NCBI GenBank assembly: GCA_950295325.1
Contig: OX485804.1
Location: 38,376,001 to 38,440,000, forward strand
Direction: 5' to 3'
Length of the DNA stretch: 64,000 nucleotides
Source of the DNA: Polytrichum commune
Taxonomy: Eukaryota; Streptophyta; Polytrichopsida; Polytrichales; Polytrichaceae
The notes beneath the pieces were generated by a model. The model searched no databases. It had not been told where the DNA came from and worked only from the letters and a program-made list of their open reading frames with translations. This document shows positions 10,699 to 57,760 of the stretch, piece after piece. Every line of letters begins with the position of its first letter. Positions within the stretch are counted from its first letter, which is position 1. The translations under genes were made by a program, and so were the position numbers.

Positions 10699-10711
10699 TG
10701 GAGAAACAAGG
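10699..10711. repeat. Left copy of the LINE target-site duplication
   Basis: TGGAGAAACAAGG here is repeated exactly at 23177-23189, immediately after the LINE 3' tail. Joining the outer flanks through one copy gives a continuous empty site. Confidence 0.85.
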
Positions 10712-12736
10712 GTGGGGGGTAACGGAGCAGAGCGATGAGGAGCTGAGTATCACGGCGAAGCCCTGCTGGAACGTTGAAAGGCTGCCAGAGGTAGGAGGAG
10801 AGGGCTAGGGTCGAAGTAGCACCGGTGTTGCTCCTCGAAACCCTCTCCTCCATCCACCCACTTGTTCAGATTCCGAAAGGGCAGCTGTAAAACCCCTGCA
10901 CACGCACTATAAAACGGCTAATCTCACCACACCAACCATCTCATACTGCTAGCGAGCCCCTGTGTGCACCCTGTGGAAGCGAGAACAGAGATAGCTGCAC
11001 TTGGAAGCAACGCTGCTGCACTACGAAGTACCGAAGCAGAGGACGGATCTGAAGGAGGCGCCGCTGCTGCACCTGCACTCGACCATCTCCCTCCCCCACG
11101 CTCCAGACGCCAACGACCTAGGACCTACCACCAAAAATCTTTGGGGCGGCACAAACACCGGCGATCAACTCTCCGCCACACTTCTGTCATCAACACCGAA
11201 GGACCTGCGCATCACCAAAGATCACTGGGTTGCACAAGAATCGACACTACTGTCGCCGAAGTCCACTGGAGCGGCACAAGGAACGGCACTACTGCAAGAT
11301 CGACACTACCGAGACCGAGATCTAGAGATCCAGCCTCCAACACCAGGATTCAAAGTGGTGTAACCTCAAAACCAGGATCTTAAACATAGCTTGTCCATTC
11401 ATTGATTTCTCGTTTTATAGACTCACTTATAGTCCCATCTCTGAGATCTCCGAAGAATCTACAAAACCCACATAGATCGCCGCCTTGTAGGATTCCACTT
11501 ACTATTTTTCTCACTCATAATTCCAGTAGCGCCCGCCTCAACCCAAAGACACCCTTCTTTGAAGAATCCCACAAAACTTAGAAAACCTCTAGAATCAGAG
11601 AGATCCCCACTCTTGAAAGATCCCATTCACTGATTGATTAGTCAAAGTCCCACCTATAGTTACATTTAGTGTCTCATCTCCAATCTGCCTCAATACTTCT
11701 CCCCCGTAAGCTTAGAAACCTTAGAGAAATCAAAGTTTCGGATACCCCCCCCTTTTCCTACAGAATCTCGTGAAACTTCGACCCGCATAGATCACTGCCC
11801 ATATAGAGTTCCATAAATCACTTTAGACACACAGCTGTTGTCGCAGTAACCTTAGCTGCTACAGAAGATAGTCTCGCTCCACCGTTACTAAAGTAGTTAA
11901 GGTTGCTTAAACCACCTACTGTTGCTAAGAGGAGCCGGCAGTCACCATACAAAGAGTGCCTCACAGGAAAGCAGGATCGGGAGACTCTTACCCTTCATCT
12001 CTCTTGAGCTAGGAAGAGTCTACTGCGGACACATAATCAAAAATTGTATCTGCCACTCAGAGGAGTCTGCTGACCGAAACAAAGCCAACCGAGAAAGGGT
12101 GTTACTGCCACCAAAAAGTAACTCTGCCCCAAGAGAACTTTGAAGCTTTGGGAGCTGCCGGGGAGCTTTCAATACGAGGAAAGAATACGTGGAAGCCGCT
12201 AGAGAGCCTGCAACCGAGGAGCTGCCTGGAGCTTGGAGCTTGGAGCCGAGGAGCTGCCCGGACAACAGTTGGGGAGCCCTTGTAGAAGATTGTGGAGTTC
12301 CAGCTGCAGCCGTGTTAAGCTACCAGGGGCGTTAACAACAAGGAAGAAGCGAGAGTAACTAGGAGCTGCCGGAGGAACTGAGCGTTGCTGCAGTGTTCGA
12401 GAAAGTGCCGAAGGCTGCAAAGAACCAAGAATTCGGGTCAGATTTGGAGCTTGATCACTTAACGAATTGACTGAAGGACCACTCTGCCTCAGAAAACCAC
12501 AGACAAAGTTGCCGACTCGAAGTCTACTGCTTGCCTGACCAGTGCCGGAAGCCGCGATACGGTGCTGCAACCATCTCAGAACCTGTTGGAGAGCTGACCA
12601 AATTGGGAGCTGTTGGAGCTATTGGAGCTACAAGCAACTCAACTCGTTGGAGGTCATTGAGTGAAGAACTCCCATCTCAGGTAAGATTCCTAAAACCTAT
12701 TACACATAGATTTAGTTGCACACACACAATAAGTAG
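10712..12736 (+). other. LINE 5' leader / promoter region
   Basis: About 2 kb, richer in GC than the surrounding DNA, between the left TSD and ORF1. Two overlapping frames (10964-11383 and 11001-11363) are repetitive and probably not proteins. The 12150-12620 part has recurrent GGAGCTG/GAGCTTGGAGC units. A GTAAG donor-like site at 12680 and an AG at 12758-12759 could define an 80-nt intron, but a spliced intron would be lost on retrotransposition, so I doubt it. Confidence 0.6.
10908..10914 (+). promoter_or_regulatory. TATA-like box inside the LINE leader
   Basis: TATAAAA, about 200 bases inside the element, followed by a C/A-rich stretch. A Pol II start about 30 bases downstream would give RNA lacking the element's first 200 bases, so either it is a secondary promoter or a chance match. 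Confidence 0.35.
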
Positions 12737-13012
12737 TCACATTGCAATTCCTTTGTTAGGATAGGAGGTAGAATGAAGGTTGCATATGCAACCATCTTTT
12801 CTTTTGTATTATGGCTCATAGTAGCCGCTTCATATTGGAAACTCTCTCACCGTGTCCCCTCTCACACTCTTTTGATAGGGTATTTAAGTAGTTGTTTTGA
12901 AAAAATACATGAACACAAACCAACATCTAGAGTAGTACCACCATACTTTTATGCCTCCCCATATGGAATCTCATGTATCTTATCAAAACACCCACACACC
13001 TTGATAACTTAA
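12737..13012 (+). pseudogene. Possible N-terminal part of LINE ORF1 with hydrophobic helix
   Basis: A short frame with ATG at 12773 encodes 79 aa with an N-terminal hydrophobic stretch (IFSFVLWLIVAASYW), then polar sequence. It overlaps the main ORF1 frame, which lies one base out of register. The overlap near 12973-13012 could mark another indel, making this the true ORF1 start, or it may be non-coding leader. A membrane helix would be unusual for a LINE ORF1 protein. Confidence 0.3.
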
Positions 13013-14911
13013 CACATCAATACACTAATCTAGAATATGAACACTCAAAATGGTTGCATGCTTGGATTGCTAAAAGTTATTGTTACAAAACCAATAAACT
13101 AAATAGGAGTAGATTATACGTAAAACACTTAAAACACTTCTTCCCAAAAACCAATATCCAAGTTGGCCCACAACTTAATTTGTGGAATGGATTTGATATA
13201 GGGATGATAAGAAGTATGGATCTAGTTAACCCTCCACAAAAACTATGTCACTTATTTGAACATTGTGTTTGTCACAGAATGTCTACATCTACCAATGTTG
13301 CTGCCACCACTACAAAATTATTTGAGCAAAATGCTAATATGATAGATACATTAGCAAACGGTCAAAAAAGACAAGTCAGTGCCATGATTGTGTCTAGCCA
13401 AAAGAAGACAAAGGGCAAGGGAGTTGTATCCCAACTCCCCCTCTTTTGGTTGGGATATCATGCGATGAATGCAATTGCATGTGAAAATGGGGATGCATTA
13501 GAACCAACATATTCGGTTAGCGAACTTGTTAAATTTGGAATGGAACATGATGAGGCATTAGAACATCTAGAAGCGGTCCATTCCTTCTCATACATCCCCC
13601 AAGAGGCTTGGCCTTCCAAAAGGATGGATGGTAAAGAAGGTGGGCACTTCAATCTCACTCAAGTGCCCTTCGATGTAGAAGTGGATGAAGGCGGGTTTTC
13701 TCTTGACTACCAAGTAGTCATAACCTTTGAGCTTTGTGATCGAAATTTGTCACGTGATGAAATATATGAAAAAACGGAAGCTAGGTTAAAAGCTATGAAC
13801 ATTCAACTAGGAGAGATCCTAGGAGAATCCATAGCCATCCTTTGCTTTCATGGTTCTAAAAGGTGGAGTGGTACGATCAAACTCCATCTCAAGAACCTAA
13901 TGAAAGATGCCAATGACCTCCTACATGGCAATATGTCATTTATCCTCAAGTTGGATAATATAACCTATTGTAGAGGAAAGGTATTCAAATCATTTGATTA
14001 TATAGCCATCGCAAGCTTGCTCTCGGTTAAAATTTCTAGCCCAACATTCAAAGATAGAAAATGGTTCCAATTGCATGAAGAAATTGTCAAATATGGCTTC
14101 AAGCGAGGGTATGAATTTGAAGTCACCAATGTGCAAAAGAATGATAGTGCCGAATTTGCATGGATAAAAACCCCATCTCCGGAGCAAGCAAAGAAACTTA
14201 AAAACTTCAAAGTTTCATTCTATAATGAAATTATGGAAGTATACTTTGTTAGTATGGACAAACTCTTCGAGGATGACAAGGCCAAAAAGAATGCGGTAGT
14301 CTTGATTGCAAAAAACTTAAACAAAACCAAAGCTACCGCTGCCTTAGAGGAAAAGAAAAAAAAAACTCTTTGAAGAAGGAAATGTAGTGGGCACTTTCTT
14401 CCAATTAGAAAAAAGTAAACATGTGGGGTCATGCAATGTGCAATGTCTAAATGCAGCTGTCTACAAGAAATTTGTGAAGCAAAATCACCTAATTAATGGC
14501 AAATACGTAGAATTTTCACCTCACCCAAAAAATTTGGACGGAATTGACGCCCCCTCCGCATCAGAACTTGCTATGCTAGGCTTTGCTGATGTGAATACCG
14601 CACTAGCCAACACGATTCAAGCATTAGAGAACGCGCCATCCAAAGGTTACACAAAAGTAGATTTGAGCAATATGGTAGAAGAGGCGGTCCACAAAGGGGC
14701 GGTGGAAATTCGAAAAGAAATGAGCATCCTCAAAGAAGAAATTGTAGAAGAAGCAAAAATATATGCGGACAAAATTCAAGCAGAGTCAAACCGAAACTCA
14801 AGAATACAAATTGCACTCCTCCAAAAACAAATGCGCATCACCTTGGAAACCCTTCAAGCCGACCACCCCAACACTCCCGAAATAGAAAATCAAATGGATA
14901 TGTCAAACTAG
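12973..14911 (+). pseudogene. LINE ORF1 protein (nucleic-acid-binding, coiled coil), one frameshift
   Basis: A frame open from 12973 (best start perhaps ATG 13279, MSTSTN) runs to TGA 14373. The protein then plainly continues one base out of register to 14911, through VKQNHL, VEFSPHPKNLDG and a C-terminal heptad-rich coiled coil (about 14680-14860). The switch falls at ten A at 14354-14363; one A fewer would restore a single protein of about 640 residues. The middle has an SQKKTKGKG basic patch. I see no canonical CCHC knuckle. By position and architecture it is ORF1p, which in LINEs binds element RNA and trimerises through a coiled coil. Composition is balanced (13 G, 7 C in 13741-13800), unlike ORF2. 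Confidence 0.8.
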
Positions 14912-15199
14912 TTTTGACATATGTAGCTATGGAAACATATATTATAAAAATATATTTATATACAAAAATAAATAAACAATAAAACAAATATTATTAAGTA
15001 TTATTAAATACTACACTCAAAATATATACAAAAATCAATAAACAACAAAACAAATATTATAAAGTATTACTAAATACTATATTCAAAATATATATATAAT
15101 TTAATAAACAACCAAACAAATAATATTAAATAATATACACAAAATGTATAAACACCACTTTAATAAAACTAAAATAAACAAAGTATCTATCGATACTAA
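14912..15199 (+). repeat. AT-rich spacer with about 68-bp tandem repeats between ORF1 and the 2A frame
   Basis: Nearly all A, T and some C. Units of about 68 bases (AATAAACAACAAAACAAAT, then AAGTATTA and AAATACTA motifs) recur two to three times between about 14960 and 15120. Stops occur in all forward frames. Confidence 0.7.
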
Positions 15200-15865
15200 A
15201 AAAAACAACAAAAAAACAACATACAAATTAAAACAAATTCAATAGTTCTATCCAATCACATCAAAAACAATAAATATACAAACAATAAACCCCTATACAA
15301 ACAATCCTACAAACAAACCTACACTAGAATAAAAAGACAAAACATAATCAAAACACTAGGCAACATACACAAGTGGATAGAAAAATTTACAATCAAAACC
15401 AAAGACCAAATATTAAACCACTCTCCTAACATACGGAAAAGACAACATTACACATTAAATCATAGACAAGAACAATTCACATACCTTAATCCACACCTTG
15501 CAAAACCCCCCATAATATGGCACACACAACACCAAACAGGCTCGGCCTACCGGCCTCGCCACAAAACCAAACAAAAATCTTTTACACACTACCACACAAT
15601 TCAACAAACTTTCAATACAATCACACGGACTACACACAAACAAACCGAATTCACACACTACCTCCCTAAGCAATCTCAAAAAATAATACTTGCCCTACCT
15701 AATATATTCACTACAAGTAAATATACACTAATAAAATACCATAATTTAAACAAACGAAAACCAAAAGTAAAACAATACTTAGGATATCACTTTATTAATC
15801 AATTAGCATTACTATGTTGTGGAGACATTGAACCTCACCCCGGCCCAATGCCTAATATAATATAA
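15200..15865 (+). pseudogene. ATG-less basic frame of the LINE ending in a 2A-like motif
   Basis: A plus-strand frame is open for 221 codons from 15200 to TAA 15863-15865 with no ATG before position 15848, so ATG-based gene calling misses it. The product is basic and polar (KRKPKVKQ) and ends LLCCGDIEPHPGP-MPNII. The D-I-E-x-x-P-G-P pattern, with preceding leucines and G, is that of 2A ribosome-skipping peptides (usual core D-V/I-E-x-N-P-G-P), known from several APE-type LINEs. Here His stands where Asn is normal, which probably abolishes skipping. The same frame resumes after the stop and leads into ORF2, so the parent element likely made a polyprotein split by 2A just upstream of the endonuclease. 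Confidence 0.7.
15803..15850 (+). other. 2A-like ribosome-skipping motif (His for Asn)
   Basis: Codons 15803-15847 read ALLCCGDIEPHPGP-type sequence and a Met follows. In working 2A peptides the bond between the final Gly and Pro is not made. The Asn-to-His change (CAC, one base from AAC) suggests this copy is inactive. Confidence 0.7.
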
Positions 15866-16438
15866 AATCACCCAACCGCTCATAAAAGACGATACTTAAC
15901 CTACTTTATACCTAGCACTATAAAACTACAACCAAAATACCAACACTTAGCCACTAACTTCAAACCATTATTCCAAAGTACACATCCCCTTCACGAACAA
16001 GTTGCATCCTCACTTCCACACTTACACAATTTTATACAACAAAATACCAACCACCCACCCCCTAGACTAATACACGCCCTAATTGTAACAATTAGCCCCT
16101 CCACCAAAGATTGCAATGCATACTTACAACAACAACCAACGCCTAATTGGACCGCACAGATATTAGAAAAAATGGCAAATTTACCTAATCCGCCAGAAAG
16201 ACACGTTGAAACCACACACCCATATACACAACTCATGTCTACACATCAAGACAAAATATCTCCCCCAAACACAATACACCATCAGCTATATGCATATATA
16301 CACCGACACGTCATACCACCCAATCTTCAGGACCTACAAAACACGTTCCCATACCTACCCCAACAATTACTTATAGAAGCACTAAGATGCACAGAACCTA
16401 TCACAGAATACACACACCCTACCCCCCCCCCCCGATAG
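15866..16438 (+). pseudogene. N-terminal segment of LINE ORF2, frameshifted at C12
   Basis: Directly after TAA 15863 the frame stays open for about 190 codons (ATG at 16172 inside it) with steady protein-like sequence rich in Pro, His, Gln and Thr. It stops within a run of twelve C (16422-16433). The endonuclease frame overlaps and takes over one base out of register, so the junction is a homopolymer length change or, less likely, programmed slippage. Function of this N-terminal extension is unknown. Confidence 0.7.
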
Positions 16439-19400
16439 TACACAACCAAATACTGTCACCTAGACCAATAACACCCACAACACAAGAAGCATACATCATA
16501 ACGTGGAATGCCGCGTCATTCAACACGGCAATGCCATGCCTCCACGAACTACTAACCCACTACCGATACCCCCCAACAGCCATAACTATACAAGAAACCA
16601 AACTTACTGCCACAAAATCCACAAAATCCACAAAATCCATCAAATACATACAAAACATCTTCCCACAATACAAACTTTTCTTCAACAATACGCACAACAT
16701 CACACGTACTATACGTCAAAGAATGACATATAGGAGTTACAGAGGCGGTCTACTCACTCTCATCCATAATAGCCATGCGTACCCTGGTAACCTATCCAAA
16801 ATATCCACTCCTGCAGACATATCACATTTTCTTCAAATCATTCGTATAGCTAACCAACCCCTCCAACCATGGCTATTAATAAACATATATATGCCTTCCC
16901 ACGACGAAGATCTACCCCTCATCCCCACCATACAAACCACCATAGTTGAACAAATTAATGCACACCCCAACCACGTCTATGTACTATGTGGCAATTTTAA
17001 CCGCGACATAGCGCTCATAGGAAGACAAAACGACCAACAAACTACACCACCCCAAGCAGAAGACTATCAATGGAGGGCATTTACAGATAACTTAGATCTA
17101 TCATACGTTACAACAAACTCCACATTCTCAAGACAAGGAGGAAACAACTACACGCACAATAGCTTAATAGATGGCTTCTTCATCAAAACCTTAAACAATA
17201 ACCAATATAGATCAACCACAAACCAAGATATAAACCTCAACTCCGACCACATACCCGTACAATTACATATCCCACCTAATACACTAATGGCCAGAATACC
17301 AGTACCCAAACCGGAACCGCCTCCAAGAATACTCAACCCCATACCAAAATCAAATCTAGAAAACTTTCACGTGCAGTTCTTCGAGACCAATTCAATCCAA
17401 ATAAACGAACTTACACAATTGCTTGAAACTAATACGACCTTAACAACAGCACAATGGCAAATGGTATGTGAATTATTTGAAACCCTCGTCAATAGCATTT
17501 CTAATATAATACTAGAAACATGCAGTGCACCACCAATTCCAAACTTACCAAACAACATTGCTAAACAAGGAGGCTATCTTCCAAAAAAACTCCAAAAACA
17601 ATGGAAAAAACACTTAGCCACATACCACCTTACCCGGAAAATAATATACATTACAAAAAATAACCCGAATTGGCGAGATCACCCCATCCTTCAACAAATG
17701 AATAACCACACGCATAGCATCCTCCCAACACCTCCAATACACCCTCTCCCACACAATACATGGATAGAAGACCTAGCCAACAAGGCAAAATTAGCCAAAA
17801 AAGAAGCCCAAAAAATCACAACGGAATATTCATTAAAACAAATAAAAAAAACCATATCCAAGTACCAACAATTATATGACAAAAGTCCCAAAAAAATCAA
17901 CAAAAAGGTCTTCAAAGAAAACGAATCACCCCCACTAGACTGCATTATAGATAGATATAATAACATCCTCACCAACCCAGAAGACATCGCCAAAGAAATC
18001 CACACCCAACAAACTATCATTAACAAACCTATAGTTCCCATATGCCACTACCAACATGATCACCCACAATACTGCACCTGTGGGGTTAGGCAATACCCAT
18101 GGCATGACCTAGACGGATATACTATCGAAAAAAGAGGTGAACCAAATGATCCATTACACACATACCTAGACCAAGAAACATACGACATGTGTCTCCGAAA
18201 TCTAGCAAACGGGAAAATCCCAGGGCCAGACAAAATCCCTAATGCCATATTAAAGTTCATGCCTCCACGCTTCCATACACTCCTATTTCTCTTCTTTACT
18301 CATTGCTATAAACAAAAACGCATCCCGACATCTTGGAAAACAAACCTTACTATACTATTGTATAAGAAAGGCAACCCATACTGCCTCAACAACCATAGAC
18401 TAATTGCTCTTGCCAACACAATATACAAATTCTTTACTAGCACACTTACTAGCATTCTCACCACGTATGGAGAAAGACATCAAATCCTACATGACAACCA
18501 AGAAGGATTTCAAGCCGAGATATGTACGTCAAGGCAACTACAAACCCTAATATCAGCACTTGAGGATGTCATATTCACAAACCAAGATATCTACATCCTA
18601 TATATAGACTTCAAAAATGCCTTTGGCTCAATTGATCACGCCAGACTACTAGCCATCATGAAAGACCTAGGTTACCCACAAGATGCCGTAACATTGATAG
18701 GAAATATCTATTCACAATCTACCACCACATACATCGGAGAATACTTTGGTAAAACACAACCAATCCCCATACAACGAGGAACCATACAAGGAGATACATT
18801 AAGCCCATACTTGTTTATTATTTTTCTAGAACCCCTTTTACGGTGGTTACAAAGGGGAAACTATGGATATACCTTCAAAACCTCTACCACTAAGTTGAAC
18901 TCCGCAACATATGCCGATGACTTAGCCGTCCTAGCCAACAAAGTAACATCATTACAATTACAACTAGACAAACTAGATAAGTTTTGCGAATGGACAGGAA
19001 TGGACCTAGGTATACCTAAATGCGCGATCACTGGATGCCCCAACAAGTCAAAACTAAACCCACAAACCTTCAAAACACACTTACAAGAAGCAAATATAAA
19101 TTTCAGACAACAACCAATACCCATACTTAGCCAACACGAACCATATGTATACCTTGGAATTAACCTAGTTCCTTTATTACAATGGAAAACACAAATGCAC
19201 ATCACCACGGCTAAATTAACCAAACAAAGTAAACTCTTAATAACATGCCCAGCGACCATGAAACAAAAAATAAAAATGGTCGATACTGTCATAAGAGCTG
19301 GTATTGCCTACAGCTTCTATGCCGTATCGTACTCTCTTCCGGCCATTAAAAAACTAGACAAGAAAATCATCGCCCTACACAAAACTATATGTGGCTTACC

Positions 19401-20589
19401 AAAATGCATGTCAAACGCCGTTACACAACTATCACATGACATGTTCGGGACAGAAGCATTTTCATTAAAAAACGCATACATAACATGCATAGGAGAACAA
19501 CTAATCAATGCCTTAAACGACAAAGGGAGGCTCGGTAGAATATACAAGGGATTAATACAACACATACTTGCCAAACACGGAGGAGCCCAAAACCTAACAC
19601 GTCTTTCACCTCATGACTGTACGAGATCACCAATTACAAGATCCCTATTCCTACTGAAAAAAACAAGTGGAACCCACCTAAAAAGTACACTAGGAAACTT
19701 CCCTCTCAACCCTACACCACTAGAAACACAATGGATGTTACAAGCAAGAAACACTCCAACACTTACCCCCGAACTATCACTAAAATACCTTCACAAACTA
19801 ATATTACATAACATATATGAAATAAAACATATCACATGCCCCAATGGAACACACCTAATGAATAACGAAGAATTTAAAGATCACTACAATAAACCCACTA
19901 AATTAGAGAAAATTGCACTGGAACACGCCATAAAACTATTCTGTAAGCCAACATGCTTTACCCCATGCACACGACAATGCTCAACACATACGACACCAAA
20001 CACCCTAAAAGATGAATATAAAATAATAACCCATAATATGCCCCTGAACCCCCAAAGAGACAATATTTATGTACCACCCACAATAATGGAAGAATACCCA
20101 AAACCACCCCCACACATACTCAAAGACCCAACACACTTTCTGATATACAAAATAAAAAATGACCGCCCATGCGCATACACGGACAAGTACAAAATCAAGA
20201 AAAAATACACATCCTACCTATGCCAATGGACACTCCCAAATGACATAATCTATGATAAATGGCTACCCCAAAAAGAATTGTTCCCTTGGAACAACCAAGA
20301 CGCCATAAACCACAACACTATGTTATTAACACAATACTATACCCGAAAACAACACCAACATTTTACTAACATCCTCAATACAAACTTCAACCACGAACAA
20401 ATGAGAGACACCAGATATATCCCCCCACCACAAACCATACCCTTATGCCACATACACATCAACGAATGCAACCCAGAGGATGATATTGCAAGCACAGAGT
20501 ATACTATCCAAACACAACATGACACGGCACATATCTACGACAACACCGGACGCCACTTAATTACCATTCCGAAAACAAGATTAAACTAG
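16387..20589 (+). pseudogene. LINE ORF2: APE endonuclease and reverse transcriptase
   Basis: 1400 codons. The endonuclease/exonuclease/phosphatase domain spans about residues 35-295: TWNAAS (39), IQETKL (about 70), GNFN (202-205, where GDFN is normal, so a catalytic Asp is lost) and SDH (286-288). Reverse transcriptase spans about 600-900: PGPDKIPN, NQEGFQ, YIDFKNAFGSID, the QGDTLSP turn and YADD at 842-845 (18910-18921). YADD is intact, though the usual DFSKAFD-type motif ends in Gly here. The rest to TAG 20587 is a Cys/His- and Lys-rich linker. The frame goes on past TAG without a shift. The coding strand is strikingly G-poor (7 G, 19 C in 20041-20100). Confidence 0.92.
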
Positions 20590-22548
20590 TTGTGGGACCA
20601 ATACCACTCAGCACTAAACACACTACACAACCTAGAACCACCCACTCAATCATTCAAAACAGAAGTAGCATGGTTATACCAAAGGTACAAATACAAAACC
20701 CCCAAAAATGACCCCCTTAAACTCTCTCAATACACACTCCCAAATGCCATCCTTGAAAACCTCATAAACACATTCGGAATAACACATTCATATTTCTCAT
20801 CACCTGTAACATGCCCCACTACACTCAGACAATTCTACTCTCCATTTCCTAGGGATGCAATATTTGGATCAGTTGGAAAGGCATTCCAACATAAATGGCA
20901 TGGAAATGGCTATGCACATCCACACACGAGTACCGAAACTCAACAAACCCTCCACTGGGCCCGGCTCGCAGCCAAAAATGATTCCAACTCTGTCACAATA
21001 CTAGTAATGCCAGACGAAAATTGGTATCAAAATCCTAACCCCTATAATGGACCCTTCCCAGACTCACATATCATAACTCACTTCAAAGCCGACACCATCA
21101 CATACGAAGAACCAACAATTCCCCCAGAACTACGTACAGAACCTAGGACAGAAACCCACGCTATACAAATAATATGCATACATCACAAAAACACACCCAT
21201 AGGAACATATATCTTTACCCAACAAATGAATGATATTGCCAACACACTACAAATCCCTGAAATGGTCTGTCAAATTTCTCCACCAACACCACCAGACACA
21301 CCAGTGAACCGTAATAAAAAATGGGCCAAACTCACCTATCCACCTCCCCCTACCCCGCCAACCACACAAATACCAACCAACCTATGGAACATCAACCCGG
21401 TACAATGCCTACCGCTTAAATACCTGCCTCAATTCTGCTATTACACGGACGGATCATTCAAACCACCAAAACAGTTAAACAATGGACAATGGAGACGGGA
21501 AAAAGCTGGTTACGGCATTTACAACCCTTTCAAAAATCTAAAAATTACAGAAAGGCTACCAGGACTACAAAGTATTCTCCGAGCAGAAATGATGGCCATA
21601 CATCACACTCTACAACTCCTCACCACAACATACCGAAATGAGCCAGCATACATATTCATAGATTGCCTAAACATATTATATCTCTTAAACACACAAATCA
21701 AACACCCCACCAGCCATAACAGTCACCCAGACAAAATAATCCTAGAAAGCACGCTTAAAATGTTAACATCCCGAACACAAATAACCACATTACATAAAAT
21801 CAAGGCCCACACAAACATAGGAGGAAACGACCAAGCAGATATACTAGCCAAACAAGGATGTGAGCTAGACCACAAAGATGCTACACTCCCATATGAACAC
21901 GCACACCCTACACCATATTACCTACAAAAAGACTGGTGGCACTCCATGCAAGAAACACCTGATAAAGGCCCCATTAGACACCTCAGCAAACATATCCTCA
22001 AACATGACAATGAACATAACTTAGCTACAATAGCAAATCAAACACATCAATTACACAAATGGTTGGACAATGACGACATAGATAAAACATTATCAAATGA
22101 CTTCTGGACGAATCCTAACGTCACAGATAAACAAAAAACATGCTTAGTAAAATTCCGAACCGGTCAATATATGGGTCATGCTCGAAAACAACTATTTTTT
22201 GGAAGAGAAGCCTTCCCATCAAGAACATGCCCCATATGCAATTCGACAGATGCCGATACATGGCTACATGTACTACTTAAATGCAAGCAACAACATATCC
22301 ATGCATTAATCACTAAAAGGCATAATAAAGCGGTATGGGAAATACGTAAACTCATTGTCTCAAACCGTACATCAAGGCACTACACATTAATGAATGCAGG
22401 AATACATAATGACCAACCGCAAGAAAATACAGTCCCACCATGGCTACTCCCATGTACATGTAACTCCCAAAGATGTCACTGCAACGCTCGGCTCAAACCC
22501 AACATACTATGCATCATAGGCCACCCATATAACCACCCACCCCCATAA
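20590..22548 (+). pseudogene. LINE ORF2 continuation: RNase H and zinc finger
   Basis: In frame with the reverse transcriptase segment after TAG, with no ATG of its own at the junction (TTG follows the stop). RNase H is recognisable with all four acidic residues: YTDGS (Asp 21448), AEMMAI (Glu 21586), FIDCLN (Asp 21661) and NDQAD (Asp 21838). Then come a CPIC-x9-H-x4-C finger (from 22228) of the type found at the end of many LINE polymerases and a CTCNSQRCHC cysteine cluster near 22460. RNase H would remove template RNA during second-strand synthesis. Ends at TAA 22546, but homologous-looking sequence continues. Confidence 0.9.
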
Positions 22549-22905
22549 ACCCCCACGCTCGATATCACCATACAGTTCATAGAATTCACATACTGCAACG
22601 ACAGATTCGCCACTGAAACCTTAGACAGAAAAATTATGAAATACCAACCACTCATAAACAACATAGCCACAAAAGGTTGGAAGGTGGCCCCACTCATGGT
22701 ACTAGCTGCGGGAGCAAGAGGCACAACACATATCCCCTCAATGAAAAACTTGGAATCCACATTTACACTCCCCATCACGAAAATCAAAAACACGTTTAAA
22801 CAAATTAATATAATTGCTACACAATACGCGCACTCCATCCTTATACATAAACGAAGGCTAGAAAACCGACAAACTATTAATGATCTCCAAGACCCCCATA
22901 ATTAA
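22549..22905 (+). pseudogene. C-terminal block of LINE ORF2 after an in-frame TAA
   Basis: Same frame as the RNase H segment. It reads through FIEFTYCNDRF to a 90-residue tail with KYQPLINN, GWKVAPLMVLAAGARG, THIPSMK and ILIHKRRLE. I recall this block at the C terminus of related LINE polymerases in seed-free plants and algae, but cannot check it here. Function unknown. The 22546 stop therefore looks like a nonsense mutation rather than the natural end. Confidence 0.65.
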
Positions 22906-23138
22906 ACTTCCACACCTAAAGCAAATTCAAATTCAAATTCAAATTCAAAATATAAAATATATATATATATATATATATATATCCCAAACAAGAACCACAT
23001 ATAACTCACTAGCTACCGAAAATCAACACTGATTACTAAATATAGTGTCTACGTCCTGAAAGGGGCGAAGTAGTTTTACATCTAAAGCCAATGCCGTAAG
23101 GCTTGGCCTAGGATGTTCTACGAACATACACTTTATTC
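22906..23138 (+). other. LINE 3' UTR with simple repeats
   Basis: Contains about four and a half CAAATT units (22920-22948) and an (AT)13-14 run (22955-22982), followed by unique sequence leading to the terminal hairpin. Confidence 0.8.
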
Positions 23139-23176
23139 ACTCCGGCCCCCTCCGGAGGCCGGAGTTCTTCTTCTTC
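23139..23176 (+). other. LINE 3'-terminal hairpin and (TTC)4 tail
   Basis: ACTCCGGCC (23139-23147) pairs with GGCCGGAGT (23157-23165) over a 9-nt loop, immediately followed by TTCTTCTTCTTC-like tail and the right TSD. In several LINE clades a 3' stem-loop and a short tandem tail are recognised by the reverse transcriptase, so this is the probable RNA recognition element. Confidence 0.75.
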
Positions 23177-23189
23177 TGGAGAAACAAGG
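23177..23189. repeat. Right copy of the LINE target-site duplication
   Basis: TGGAGAAACAAGG, identical to 10699-10711, directly after the tail. Confidence 0.85.
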
Positions 23190-23262
23190 AGTATGTGCCT
23201 TCCCGCACTGTGCATTGGAAACAGAAAGACTAGATAATAAATTGGAAGGCACATACTCCTTG
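23185..23262. repeat. 19-bp inverted repeat at the LINE target
   Basis: CAAGGAGTATGTGCCTTCC at 23185 and its exact inverse at 23244-23262 flank a 40-base loop. The first arm overlaps the TSD by five bases, so the LINE entered at the base of a hairpin-forming sequence. Confidence 0.75.
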
Positions 23263-23943
23263 TAACTTGAGAAGTGGCATGCCTAGTTTGGATCCTTCCC
23301 TAGATTGGAGGAGAGCAAACACTACAAATGTAACAAATCCCAAAAATGTAATGGGTTTGAGCATGACATGTTTACACTTGCTCAAACTATTGAGAACTTG
23401 AAGATTAGTCAAGGGTCTCATGAGTTGGAACATTGGAGTAAGACTTGTGGAATCCACGTATCACATTCCCAAGAATGACAAGTTCGAGCTCTCCCATTTC
23501 AAACTATAGTGTTAAGGATATCTAAAAGCTTGATGAAATATAAAATACAACAAGGAGGAAATGACATGAGATATGCTCGCCTTTGGTTAACTCCTAAAAG
23601 TTTTTGGAGCCTGATTCAAACCTCTTTTACATACATTAATTTGGAATTCTAGAACGTGATATTACAGTGTGGTGTGACTTTTTGGTAGAGAGTGATAGCT
23701 TGCTATCATGGAAACTTACACTTCTTACCAACCACTCAAAGTGATTCAAAATGAATTTGACGGGGATATCATACCTATGGTATAAAGAGAGGATAGACAA
23801 TCAATATGAAACTGTTGAAAGTATTTATGGGTTGAGTTACCCACTTGTTTTCATGCCCCTTCACTCAAGCTTGCTTTTGGCATTGCACCATACAACGAAC
23901 AGGAAGAAGCGACCACTAGTTACATATGGACATGTTCGGTTTG
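23263..23943. other. Intergenic DNA, nothing recognised
   Basis: No protein-like frame or recognised repeat. Confidence 0.45.
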
Positions 23944-48515: not shown

Positions 48516-51500
48516 ATGGGGATGATGAGTATTCTACCGGATTGGGGTGTTCCAGAGCACATGGGGAGCATGCTGCAAAACATCTTCGCCGAATACATGG
48601 ACAGGTGGGATGAAGGTGATGAACTCTTCTATGGAATCATGGAGGTCACGGAGTCATCAACAGTAGATGAATTGTGGAGCACAGATGGTGACACCACAGA
48701 CATCGTCAACTTTGAGATCGAGGCCGAAGTGTGCTTGACTTCCTTGGCAGCCAATTTCGCAGACTCCATCAACAAAGCACAACAACAAGCCTCCCCATCA
48801 TCAACATCAACATCAACATCAACAGCTATGGACAACACTCTTGGGGTTGACATCTGCCCATCTTCTGCTGACATCATCTGTGATGAAATGGGAAATTCAA
48901 AAGGACTGGGGGAAGTGAGAGAAATGCAACTTCATCTTCAAGCTTGCACAGACATCATTCCATATGACCCTCTATTGTTGTCATGTGATGTGGATTTCAC
49001 GGATGAGCTTGACCTAATTGGGCTAGATGTCAATGGACATATGGGCAGTGACCTCCTGTTGCGTGCAACCACCATGATGCAAGGCTGGGATGACCTTGAA
49101 TATGAGACAAATGCGAGTCATGCGGAAATTAGCAATAATACGGATACTGATGTATCGTTGTACACTGGATATGAAGATGATGAAAGGGTTAATTTCAACT
49201 CCATCAGCAACTTGGCACAAGGGGCATCAACTTCAAAAGAACTTTCTTCCATCCGTTGCAATAATCTTCAGACGAGACGATTGGGTTCAGTAGAAGAGGA
49301 AATTCTGGAGTATGCAGTTCCAAGCTTGGATTTGTCGCCACAAGACTCTGAAATAAGTTCCCCTCCCTCAGCTGGCAATAACGGATCGGTGACAGAGAGC
49401 ACAGATGACAGTGACTCTGTAATGTACAAGCAAGCACAAGTGGAAAATAATTGCAGCTTTGGTAAGAAAGGTGAGAAAGGGGTTACAATGTCAAGCCCTG
49501 GGGTAAAAAAGCGAAAGCGAAAGCGAAGCAAAAGTAGCGCTGCTGCTGCTCACAAACCCAAATCAAATTTCAAGAAATCCAGGAGGTCTGGGTCTGAAAC
49601 TGATGAATGTCTGGCTGCTGATCCAAGCGAAGTTGATGAAGATCGCATCAAGTGGGATCCCTTGAAGTGTGGGCCTTCCAAAAGAAAAGGGACTTCCTGT
49701 AGGAGTAATACTGGGGCTTGGAAGGATTTGATGAGTAAAAATGGGGTCTGCTCCGACAAGGACAGGTTAGTAAAAAAACTCATATTCATAAGACTTTGTT
49801 CCTCCAAACACAATTCAATTCCTCATTTAGTCAATTCGGGCGTGTAGTTAGGTGTGGATCTAAGAATGGACACCAAAACGACATGTTTAAAAATGATTGG
49901 ACTACGTGCTACAAAATTTGTTAACCATTCTAGGCTCAGTATTCAACATAATTGGGGAGCCCTATCTGGTTGTCTAAGGCTCCGGCACCTTTGACTTTGA
50001 AAAATCATAGCAACAAGGGAGATCAGAAAATGCCTTAAATTGTTGCTAAAATCTCAAATCGCATTCTCAGATCCAAGAAAAATATTAAATTTGATATCCA
50101 AGTTCAAGTTTTGAGAATCATGGCAAGCAGCAAAAACTAACTATTGAAGACATGTTTGCCTTAGTAAATGTCATCTCACATGCTTACCATGGAGGGATCG
50201 AGCAACCAAGATATTTTAGTGTGAAGTGTGGGTTGTGTCTTTTTTTAAGGCAGTGGATATGTGTGTGTGCCGGTTGTGTAGGCAAAGAGTTGTGCAAGCC
50301 CTGTATACATTTGAGGAGTTGCGACAGAGCTTCATTGGGGTTGAGGGAGCACGAGCCGCAAAAGGTCGGGCCGCGGGTCTGCGGTGCAACCCCAGGGCTG
50401 ATTTGCGAGCCAGCAAACAAATGAAGGCAGATGGCCTTCGAGTGAACACGAGCCAATGTATAGGCAATGTGCCTGGGATCCATTTGGGGGATCGATTCTG
50501 GTATCGCATTGAGATGGTTGTTGTGGGCCTTCACCAGCAGCTAGAAGCTGGGATTGCATATATTGGTAAGAACAGCTCCCCATCTGGAGTGTCCTTAGCC
50601 ACCAGTATCGTTATAAAGCACTCCAGCAACCCATATCAAGATGATGCTGAAAATGGTGATCTCATCACCTACACTGGGCAAGGGGGTAACACGACTCATG
50701 GCACCAATGTTTCCACCCACCAGGTATATATCTTCTGCTTTACTTCTGATTCAATTCGTAGTAAGGTAGGTAAGGTAGGCCGATGTTAATCCAACATCGC
50801 AAGAGGTCTGGAAACCTATATTTGAGTGTGTGGTTAGGTGTGGATCTAAAAATGGACACCAAAAAGACATGTGATTGGACTAAGTGCTTAAAATATGCCA
50901 ACCATTCTAGGCTCAGTAGTTAACATAACTTGAGGGGGGGCTATATGACCATTTAATGAGCATGAGAATCTTCACTTTGATAACAAATAAGATATTCATA
51001 CGAGCTCCGAAAATTATGAGGCAAATGGTTACGGGTGCAATTTGTATCTGTTAATCATCTCGAACTATTTTCATGTTTCATATCCTACAAGAACTGGGTG
51101 CAGAGAGAGAAATGTCCGATTAAATCATGTCTACCTTATGTCTTATTCAAACACCTACTTTTGGGTGCAAAATGGTCCAATGCTCTCCTTAAACAAACGT
51201 TTCTAGTAACATCTTAAACTTTTTACGCTGGTCCATTGGTTGGGATAGCCAAAACTCAATCCTCAACGCTCAACACTAACCTCTTTAGGCACAGCTGTAT
51301 AACCACTTAAGAAGATCGCAAATATACTCTTTGAAAATTCGTCACAAATAGAGGTTCAGTCACCTTACTCATTCTTATGGCACTTGATTTGTACAAGGTT
51401 TGCTAATCGACTAGGGTTTTTTTTCCCCTGGATTTATTGCACATCAGAAGGGGTCAAACCTCCTGGAAGTAATGGTGATAGGCTGTCTACCTTATTCTTC

Positions 51501-54957: not shown

Positions 54958-57760
54958 TTAAGGGGAGAGCTGCGGTTGCCCAGGTAGGCGTCGCAGAACA
55001 AACTTGTAAACTAGCATGCCTTGCATCCCAGCCTCATAACGCATTTCCACAATATGGTAAAGTCCTAAATATGTGTAGCATTCGCCATTTAAACTTGAAG
55101 CATCCTTCTGTCCCCGGATCACACGGACTGGTGTACAATTTTTGAAACTGTTTCTAAGAGCCTCGTTGCCTCTTGTCAATTCCTGACACACGACAATGCA
55201 CATCATAACCGTCATGCCCACAATCACTGCAATGGTCTCGTAATAATTAGGAGCAACTACAAAAGGATATGATTGAGTTATCATCTTGACTAAACATGCC
55301 TTCTGGTTGGGAGTTGATTGTTTTGCTTAGAACACCTTCCATGTTTGGTGAGTTCGTGGTGCATATTTGGAGGTAGTGTAAATAACAGTCTATCTCAGTT
55401 CATTGAGGTGCTAAAATGAGTCTGACCCTCAATGAACCAAAACAGGAGCTCTTCATTCAAAATCACACTACCTCCAAGCGTGCACCACATACAGAATTAA
55501 AAATTAGTGATTTGGTATGCACAACTAATGAAAAACCGTAGGAGAGACCAACTTTGCACAAAAAGTTCCATCAAGTTGAAAGGATAACTCTAATGTATTG
55601 AAACTTTGAATGATGATGATGTTACCTGATTATTGATAGGGACTGCAGCATTGTTGTGCTGGGAGAGCCCCCCCTGGCCAGTGTAAGTGATTAGGTCACC
55701 ATTCTCTTTTTCAGCGTCATCATGATATGGGCTGGCAGTATTTTTCATGACTATGCTAATAGCCAGGGGCAACCCAGGAAGTGGAGAATCAGTCTTTGTA
55801 AAGTAGGAAATTCCCGCCTCTGATTGGAGGTGCAGGCCCAACGCATGCACTTCAGCACGGTAAACAAACCGATCACCCACATAGATACCCGGTACATTAC
55901 CCAAGATTTTTTCTTTGTTCACTCGCAGATTATTAGTCCCCATCCACTTTAGCGCTTGCAAGTCCGGTCTCTTGTGACATTTCTGACCTGAAGCATGAAC
56001 ATCAGTCTCACGACTTCCCTCAACCCCAATGAAATCCTGTCTCAGCTTATCAAATCTCTCCCTTGCTTTCTGCACTTTTAGCCTGTCCTCTTCAGTCCCA
56101 GTCTTAATTTGATACTTCACGTCTTTCGTGCACACACATGTAGATGTGGAGCACGACTTCCCGTTGTTGGGCGGGGCAACATAATGATGAGCTTCCAGCT
56201 TCACGGAACCCAGCTTGCTTGACCCAGCATGGTCGCTCACACCCACCTTGCAAGATTTTGCACTCTTACGGCCACTTTGAGAAGCACCAGAAGCACCAGG
56301 GCTTGCCTCTACTCTTGCTGACGAGCACAGTCCACTGCCACTTTCTACAAAGCTCTCTGGGTCGTTTCTAAAGTCAGCTGAGGAAGGAAGGCCAACAGAC
56401 AAAGACACGGTCTCATCCCCTACCATATCTTGTCTGGTAGTCTTCAAGGCCAATGACAAAGGTGGACTTCCAGCTAACCTGACCACCTTATCAGAGACTA
56501 TACAGGGAGACTCCACCTTCACCACAATTTCCTTTGTCTTGGCAATAGATGACCTCACGGTCTCTCCCTTCTGCACATCATGTCTCAGTTTGCTCGTTTC
56601 CTGACGAGGAGATACCTCGGGCATGTAATCCGTCCAATCAATCGCATTCATGCTAGGAGAAACCTTACTCACACTTTCTTTGCCATGGTGGCGCTTGTCC
56701 TTCTTCATGTGCTTGCCATCAGAGTAGCTCCCAACCTGTACTTCCAAGTCATCCCTCCTCCGTTTCACCTTGTGCGTGGGGTCTGTTTCCCCCCCAACTG
56801 GAGGAGCTTCCTTGACTTTGAGAGGCCGAATATTTAAATGGCCTACACAAGGCCCAAGGAGTGTCAGACAAATAGCCAGACCATACACGAGACTGCTGAG
56901 ACGTAAATTGATTTATCGGGCAGTTAGAGAAAAAATATCTTTATGATGCATCGAGATCAATGAGTGTTGCGTCCATGCAAGATGTGGTCGTAAGATAGCT
57001 CTTGAACATAAACATGCAAAATCTCTCAATTAGTAGATTTGCAGCTAGAGACTCATCACTATGATGAAATCAATGTGCAGACTGAGCTTATTATGCAAGC
57101 AGCCAGTGCAGGCCCATCATTCTCCAAAGAGAATAATCTAGAGGTGTTTTCGCCATTTTGAGAGGTCATGATACAAGGATAACATTAATAGGATGCCATT
57201 TCCAATATTCGCATTTACTGGAATTTCTTTGTATCAAGCTTTTTGGTTCTTCCAACAAGATGGAAGGGTGTCCTGACAACAGACCCAAAGTTCTGGAGAT
57301 CTTATGAACAGTTTATCTATGCTAGCTTCTTTGGGTGATCAGCATGATTGTTAGAAAGTTAGGTGGATGATGCCCCGAATTCCATGCCAGTCAAATCAGG
57401 TGAACGAGATCCATCATTGAATCTTGATTAGGAATTGCATTTGATATGTGAAGGCAAGTAAAACTTATCTCTCCCCATTTTTTGTTTCTCTTTTCCAGTG
57501 CGCAAGGTAGAATGTCAAGAAAATGTCCCAAATGGCTAGGAGAGAGGCGGAATGCTACCTGGAGGAAACGTCGGCACAGAGAAGCTCTCTTTAAGTACTG
57601 TAACGTGAGAGCGGAGCCTCGTCAATTCCCGCTCGATTTTTTCCACATCCTTGCGCCTCACCCTCACTAGCTCCTCCAAAGCTTTCTCTGCAGCCTTTCC
57701 CACAATGTCTGCAGTTTGTATCCTGCACCGTTCCGGTGCTAAGTCCATGTCTCTTGACAT
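54958..57760 (-). CDS. SRA-only (SUVH-type SRA) protein, 3 coding exons, gene 2
   Basis: Coding exons, in gene order: 57760-57559, 56842-55626 and 55182-54958. They join in phases 1 and 0 to 547 residues. The N terminus (MSRDMDLAPERC) has a charged coiled-coil helix (AAEKALEELVRV to ERELTRLRS), then a long Ser/Lys-rich disordered middle with KVKRRRDD. The SRA domain fills the last 200 or so residues: RFDKLRQDFIGVEG, RPDLQAL, VPGIYVGDRF, ALGLHLQSEAGISY, DLITYTGQGG, then exon 3 ELTRGNEALRN, VRVIRG, YTYLGLYHI and RLPGQP. The frame stops seven codons later, so pre-SET and SET domains are absent: a probable methyl-cytosine reader without methyltransferase activity. It faces the paralogous gene 1 tail to tail. 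ATG 57760 is the first in a frame open a little further upstream. Confidence 0.87.

Follow-up and report, generated by a model that had tools for sequence, protein, structure and literature searches.

How much of the long retrotransposon-like stretch in this part of the Polytrichum commune genome belongs to one element, and what kind of element is it? We analyzed 64,000 nucleotides of contig OX485804.1 (GenBank assembly GCA_950295325.1; positions 38,376,001 to 38,440,000 of the forward strand; hereafter "the window," meaning this whole stretch). An earlier sequence-only reading had proposed that a 12.5-kb long interspersed nuclear element (LINE), made up of a 2-kb leader, a first open reading frame (ORF1), a "cryptic frame," and ORF2, lies here between perfect 13-bp target-site duplications (TSDs). 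Very probably, the 12.5-kb stretch is a full-length, now inactive 12,465-bp insertion of a large and recently active family of plant non-LTR (long terminal repeat) retrotransposons, with a mechanism that would include a non-catalytic, PCIF1-like binding module.

Boundaries of a single insertion

The 13-mer TGGAGAAACAAGG has exactly two matches in the window and none further at one mismatch. As the sequence-only reading had it, these begin at 10699 and 23177, directly outside the element (10712-23176), and the right copy stands directly 3' of CTCCGGCCCCCTCCGGAGGCCGGAG(TTC)4. Shuffled sequences averaged 0.11 matches to the 13-mer, and 0 of 100 shuffles reached two.

Does an unoccupied version of the target exist? 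As a query we used the outer flanks joined with one copy of the repeat (502 bp), searched against the same genome (408 Mb, 64 contigs), with the best 40 of 151 candidates scored. The flanks themselves aside, one of the scored places, C2:8539689-8540161, matches query positions 1-502 continuously at 80%. It holds the repeat once, with 12 of 13 bases (GGAGAAACAAGG; the first T of the 13-mer is an A), and the alignment is uninterrupted across the junction (...GGAGAAACAAGGAGTATGTGCC...). This is a paralogous unoccupied site, not an unoccupied allele, and in that form the empty site sought for this insertion exists. Part of the right flank (query ~419-500; window 23356-23437) is a dispersed repeat with 35 further short matches at 79-92% among the best 40 places; these were given no weight in the empty-site argument. 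The right flank also carries an inverted repeat (87%; window 23173-23203 and 23244-23274) that starts at the TSD and has a weak match to mir-350 (E 0.22). Most of this repeat is found in the empty-site paralogue as well, and it therefore belongs to the target. No terminal repeats of at least 20 nt were found at the element ends.

Where do other copies end? We searched with the last 641 bp, scored the best 40 of 1,237 first-look candidates, and then left out the window itself. The end predicted from the window recurred in 37 of the 39 other copies, which extend to query positions 627-632, where tail and TSD meet (31 as a single piece and 6 as two pieces); the remaining two end at 599 and 359. 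All 20 of the 3' ends that were fetched have a hairpin and then 1-10 units of a TTC-type tail (the tail of L023 is a variant), the first base after the tail is T in 18 of them, and the sequence beyond differs from copy to copy, with no common target. Copies A, B, and C (on C5, C1, and C2) have tails of TATC units, not TTC, after the same kind of hairpin. All five other long copies that were fetched (A-E) are flanked by TSDs of 12-13 bp around elements of 12.0-12.7 kb (Table 1). With a reverse transcriptase (RT), no LTRs, a constant 3' end, 5'-short copies (L079 and copy C, which starts inside the leader), and TSDs, the element is a non-LTR retrotransposon (LINE).

Could the window instead hold a composite, in which an ORF2-type LINE lies beside an unrelated leader locus and the 13-bp repeat is coincidental? 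Many leader matches elsewhere in the genome are short (query ~53-193 in many), and near-identical bodies can have different leaders, as A and B do. However, the outer flanks are directly contiguous in the paralogous empty site, and excision products, which such a paralogue might otherwise be, are not known for LINEs. Furthermore, 5/5 other long copies are duplicated around leader and body together, four of them (all but C) with a structured RNA module near the 5' end, and in A and B, as in the window, 9-10 kb separate this module from the PCIF1-like domain downstream. The empty site and the duplications in other copies rule out a chance or composite origin of the repeat, and a composite locus is extremely improbable. 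The exact TSD, the empty site, the duplications around other copies, and the common 3' end instead establish that a single insertion comprises the leader, ORF1, the "cryptic frame," and ORF2, and on this the sequence-only reading holds.

Recent movement, leaders, and the 5' module

How recently has the family moved? Copies A, B, and C are mutually 99.3-99.6% identical over the 10-12 kb common to them, and in all three both ORF1 (747 aa) and ORF2 (2,625 aa) are open frames, so the family has moved recently. Copies D and E are broken. So is the window copy, as had been noted from its sequence: both ORFs contain frameshifts, and stop codons stand in frame at 15863, 20587, and 22546. Among ten copies compared with it, L079 (C1:0.37 Mb, 3' half only) is the nearest, at 1.9% divergence over the last 2.6 kb, with ~1.5% on the window copy's own branch. 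By simple arithmetic, the chance that a 13-bp pair stays unmutated for that long is ~0.67. A perfect pair is thus still likely at ~1.5% divergence, and the TSD proves the insertion while dating it only loosely; the earlier claim that a perfect TSD implies a young insertion was too strong for such a clock. Copies A, B, and C are closer to each other than this copy is to its nearest relative. We also considered a premature stop common to copies as proof of mobilization in trans and rejected it: the stop at 22546 occurs in L075 and not in the nearest copy, L079, and homoplasy and recombination are indistinguishable as its source. L075 (C1:51.35 Mb), a related copy, carries 1,154 bp of inserted sequence towards the end of ORF2.

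The two ends of the element behave differently. The hairpin and TTC-type tail picked out in the sequence-only reading are general, but its G-rich 5' start does not extend to the family: each of six copies begins differently, and the first common module lies ~40 to 236 nt from the 5' end, depending on the copy. The bodies of A and B are 99.3% identical, whereas their leaders, the 5' module excepted, differ upstream of an abrupt joint. The searched piece of the B leader (1,401 bases) has a single other match in the genome (110 bp, 79%), and that of A (1,301 bases) recurs in C only, plus one 65-bp match. The window and copy D likewise have similar bodies and largely different leaders. Faster mutation of the leader was tried as an explanation on A and C and rejected, as their apparent 95-96% identity is mostly due to gaps, with mismatches at 0.6-0.7% per 500 nt. 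With so few mismatches, leader replacement is a better reading than point mutation for A and B. Copy E matches the window at 86% in the ORF1 region and at ~67% in ORF2, and its ORF2 matches that of A at 74%; these values make it a chimera between subfamilies, which is consistent with leader exchange. In the chimeric element recorded as L009/L010 (C6:11.70 Mb), ORF1 is of the window subfamily and ORF2 is nearer the A subfamily.

What is kept within these changing leaders? The search for the module listed at least 35 matches, and we aligned 25 copies (20 fetched, A, B, D, E, and the window). Across the 140-nt alignment GAGGT and TGCTCC are invariant and a CACCCAC stretch is nearly so. Five single-sequence folds gave z-scores of -2.2 to -4.1, and 10 of the 25 consensus pairs have both partners changed; shuffles average 7.1 such pairs, and 14 of 500 attain 10, a control weakened by the relatedness of the copies. 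In the module structure, which was derived from the same sequences, 92.3% of cells pair, vs. 52-67% with the partners slid. The consensus energy is small (-7.4 kcal/mol), partly from poor alignment of the stem. An Rfam search of the window returned only the mir-350 match mentioned above (E 0.22), which is mostly in the right flank, and the 20 fetched modules gave eight matches, all below the family cut-offs.

ORF2 and its PCIF1-like domain

How is the coding part of the element organized? The "cryptic frame" does not stand as a separate unit, being continuous in A, B, and C with the 2,625-aa ORF2, of which it is the N-terminal part. In copy A this open frame of 2,625 codons starts before the ORF1 stop and has its first ATG after it. 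The N-terminal part ends in a 2A (StopGo)-type motif, GDIEPNPGP at residue 281 of the open frame in A and GDIETNPGP in L033. These two of four elements fit the 2A consensus, given as (D/G/C/N)(V/I)ExNPGP in PMC12846837, whereas GDIKPNPGP in L034 and GDIEPHPGP in the window depart from it. After the motif follow an APE-type endonuclease, RT, the PCIF1-like domain, RNase H, a CCHC finger, and a restriction-enzyme-like (REL-like) region. When the open ORF2 of A is compared with that of L034, the ratio of nonsynonymous to synonymous change (dN/dS) is 0.05 in RT, 0.06 in APE, 0.05 in RNase H, and 0.14 in the REL-like region; the piece before the 2A-type motif, at 0.55, is relaxed relative to the catalytic domains.

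ORF1 has no Pfam domain over cut-off. Its N-terminus, MKVAYAT..FVLWLIVA, is hydrophobic and common to the window and A-E (D has a stop in it), and is possibly a membrane or signal segment; over this stretch (window 12773-12860; also L002, L004, and L006) the maximum 19-residue Kyte-Doolittle mean is 1.76 in A. Between ORF1 and ORF2 lie three AT-rich 66-bp tandem units, the third diverged (14957-15154), whose number appears different in D and E.

Is this an ordinary L1-type plant LINE that is only longer? The best solved relatives of its RT are R2 (E 1e-25), vs. E 8e-14 for 8c8j, a structure labeled "RNA-directed DNA polymerase" that we take to be human L1 ORF2. The APE match to PF03372 exceeds the cut-off of 24.5 in L033 (25.5 bits) and is not listed for L034 or for the partial piece of A. 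Although RNase H has been reported in plant L1 elements too (PMC4640811), the R2-like RT, a C-terminal CCHC finger followed by a REL-like motif ([KR]PDILC..QFIEFTY..K..KY, kept in 5/5 relatives aligned), the PCIF1-like domain, and a TTC tail in place of poly(A) make this very unlikely. The sequence-only reading of a long plant LINE stands as to LINE and length, 12,465 bp, but the element is not a plain one, having the PCIF1-like domain and a plan like that of Dualen elements.

How widespread is the PCIF1-like domain, and what might it do? PF12237 (PCIF1_WW) is over cut-off in four elements, and all 150 genome matches that were scored, the best 150 of 697 candidates, exceed the Pfam cut-off; a rough count of first-look candidates for the domain in the genome is 1,922, with 150 scored. 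No separate cellular PCIF1 was seen among the best 150 of 697 candidates (best match 55.6 bits), and introns could hide one. The matched segment of PCIF1 includes NPPF, which that enzyme needs for catalysis, and in its place the LINE copies have HPHN, HPHT, HPPN, HPNN, HPYN, or HANN. NPPF is absent from all 22 distinct loci (the window, 20 others, and copy A; L037 was dropped as the same locus as L031). Many residues of the domain are nonetheless invariant across 17 loci, and its dN/dS of 0.10 between A and L034 indicates purifying selection close to that on RT (0.09 between A and L033, a pair near saturation that serves as a check only). Being conserved under selection yet having lost NPPF, the domain is retained for a purpose that is not PCIF1-type catalysis, and we infer non-catalytic binding of RNA or of the cap.

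Two other accounts of the domain bear weighing. It could be an active or altered methyltransferase, mostly with HP[HPNY][NT] for NPPF, whose substrate would be capped RNA of the element itself; the homology with PCIF1, which spans the catalytic core, and the strong purifying selection would fit, but with NPPF missing in 22/22 loci this is improbable. Or the segment might be a mere structural linker left from a methyltransferase ancestor, with no binding role. The lost catalytic motif agrees with such a linker, as do a binding role predicted from sequence only and an uninformative AlphaFold2 (AF2) model. Against it, dN/dS is at roughly the low level of the catalytic domains while the pre-2A piece is relaxed (0.55), and many residues are invariant in the 17 loci, so that we regard a linker as a minority possibility, if a real one.

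In the mechanism that we favor, with a non-catalytic binding module, ORF1p would bind the element RNA, and a 2A skip during translation of ORF2 would set the enzyme free from the fast-evolving N-terminal piece. The hairpin at the 3' end would be recognized together with the UUC tail, an endonuclease would nick the target where T comes to follow the tail, and priming of cDNA would take place at the nick. The PCIF1-like domain, lacking NPPF, may serve to bind RNA or its capped 5' end and not as a methyltransferase, and the 5' module perhaps helps a full-length RNA to be chosen or completed. A more specific scenario is speculative, and taken as a whole we think it rather unlikely: that the LINE captured a PCIF1-family methyltransferase in ORF2, which lost its catalytic motif and became a cap or 5'-end reader, picking or completing full-length 12.5-kb copies together with the 5' module while most of the leader was exchanged freely.

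Several observations weigh against this mechanism. The 5' ends are not constant among copies, the 5' module is missing from copy C, and the count of further pair types in that module is unexceptional, being reached by 83 of 500 shuffles. The preference for T after the tail is partly explicable by incomplete tail units, and the motif of L034 is not a canonical 2A. For the REL-like region there was no significant Pfam match and none to the solved R2 endonuclease or elsewhere in the PDB, profile search included. A 17-row family profile matches PCIF1 more weakly (0.0017) than the window sequence does by itself, the role proposed for the domain draws on just one lost motif and conservation, and single-sequence structure models of the PCIF1-like and finger/REL-like regions have mean confidences (pLDDT) of 33 and 30 and are unusable.

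Elsewhere in the window, two pieces of SRA-domain genes lie on opposite strands (50220-50786 and 55593-56912; PF02182, E 1.6e-19 and 3.3e-16). Outside it, the start of C1 carries TTTAGGG arrays; these arrays and the SRA-domain pieces are signs of a plant host.

Table 1. Features of the element, in window positions, and the five other long copies
Feature	Position	Strand	Remark
Left target-site duplication	10699..10711	+	TGGAGAAACAAGG; single-copy in the paralogous empty site
5' leader, ~2 kb	10712..12772	+	Differs among copies, except in the 5' module and where it adjoins ORF1
Structured RNA module, long hairpin	10746..10895	+	GGAGG pairs with CCACC; 25-copy alignment, folds, covariation
ORF1, frameshifted	12773..14911	+	Pieces 12773.., 12931-14373, 14348-14911; 747-aa open frame in A, B, C
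ORF2 N-terminal part ("cryptic frame")	15200..15865	+	Continuous with ORF2 in A, B, C
2A (StopGo)-type motif, mutated	15821..15847	+	GDIEPHPGP
APE-type endonuclease	16498..17115	+	PF03372 E 0.0032, under cut-off in the window
Reverse transcriptase core	18364..19164	+	PF00078 E 1.7e-25
PCIF1-like (cap m6Am methyltransferase-like) domain	20590..21231	+	NPPF replaced by HPHT; PF12237 E 9e-11; PDB 6irx E 1.5e-5
RNase H	21436..21861	+	PF00075 E 2.8e-12
CCHC-type finger (CPIC..H....C), then RHNKAV..IRKL	22228..22360	+	Motif reading only
REL-like region ([KR]PDILC..QFIEFTY..K..KY)	22488..22890	+	Window has KPN for PD and in-frame stop 22546
3' untranslated region	22906..23176	+	Ends in hairpin CTCCGGCC..GGCCGGAG (23140-23164) and (TTC)4 tail
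Right target-site duplication	23177..23189	+	
Copy A			Duplication TTTGAATTAGGA, 12 bp exact; element 12,490 bp
Copy B			Duplication TGGCCCCATAGG, 12 bp exact; element 12,702 bp
Copy C			Duplication TCCATTCTTAAC, 12 bp exact; element 11,965 bp
Copy D			Duplication TTGAACAAGATT, 12 bp exact; element 12,476 bp
Copy E			Duplication TGTCAAGGG[T/C]CAT, 13 bp, one mismatch, exact part 9 bp; element 12,183 bp

Placement among known elements

Which known elements does this LINE resemble? Dualen was first described in Chlamydomonas, and algal Dualen has a cysteine protease, which may not be a defining trait; the scanned ORF1 and ORF2 pieces had no Pfam match to such a protease, and no search with a Dualen sequence was made. 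The Dualen/RandI plan combines APE with a REL-type end and RNase H, according to PMC3636483 and PMC4640811, and Dualen has been reported in green algae (PMC8226300) and cryptophytes (PMC12747079). The element shares with this group an APE, a putative C-terminal PD-(D/E)XK-like motif, an RT near that of REL-bearing R2, and RNase H; it differs in its PCIF1-like domain, its 2A-type motif, its ~12.5-kb length, and its plant host, and its REL is known from the motif only. As APE, a REL-like end, and RNase H make up that plan, we provisionally place the element in Dualen/RandI. Among the papers listed by literature searches, which covered few subscription papers, none dealt with Dualen in land plants and none with a PCIF1-like domain in a retrotransposon, which is weak evidence of novelty in both cases. 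A search of IMG/VR with two alignments gave no relatives for either. A Dualen-like plan in a plant would bear on the shift of LINEs from REL to APE endonucleases.

The likeness to R2, which also has a CCHC finger and then a REL, lies in that order of motifs and in the closest solved RT; unlike R2, the element has APE, RNase H, and a separate ORF1, and its fetched flanks have no common target. Plant L1 elements carry APE and RT, make TSDs, and are about half as long. The element shares with them the APE-RT-RNase H order and the TSDs, but has a hairpin with a TTC (or TATC) tail, a C-terminal finger/REL-like region, a PCIF1-like domain, and roughly double the length.

The 2A/StopGo elements of APE-type non-LTR retrotransposons, reportedly described by Odon in 2013 (cited in PMC12846837 and PMC4981915), resemble the D-I-E-x-N-P-G-P of A and L033, which differs in belonging to a plant element, in its place at residue 281 of the copy A ORF2 frame, and in being recognized from sequence alone. 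LINEs rarely carry extra RNA-handling enzymes. If the favored mechanism is right, a selected, non-catalytic relative of a cap methyltransferase between RT and RNase H would offer a handle on 5'-end recognition and full-length insertion by non-LTR elements, and the size of the family, with its near-identical open-frame copies, makes comparisons possible. With the cap-adenosine N6-methyltransferase PCIF1/CAPAM itself, the domain shares a homologous core (PF12237; PDB 6irx, 6irv), and it differs from that enzyme in the replacement of NPPF and in being embedded between the RT and RNase H of a LINE.

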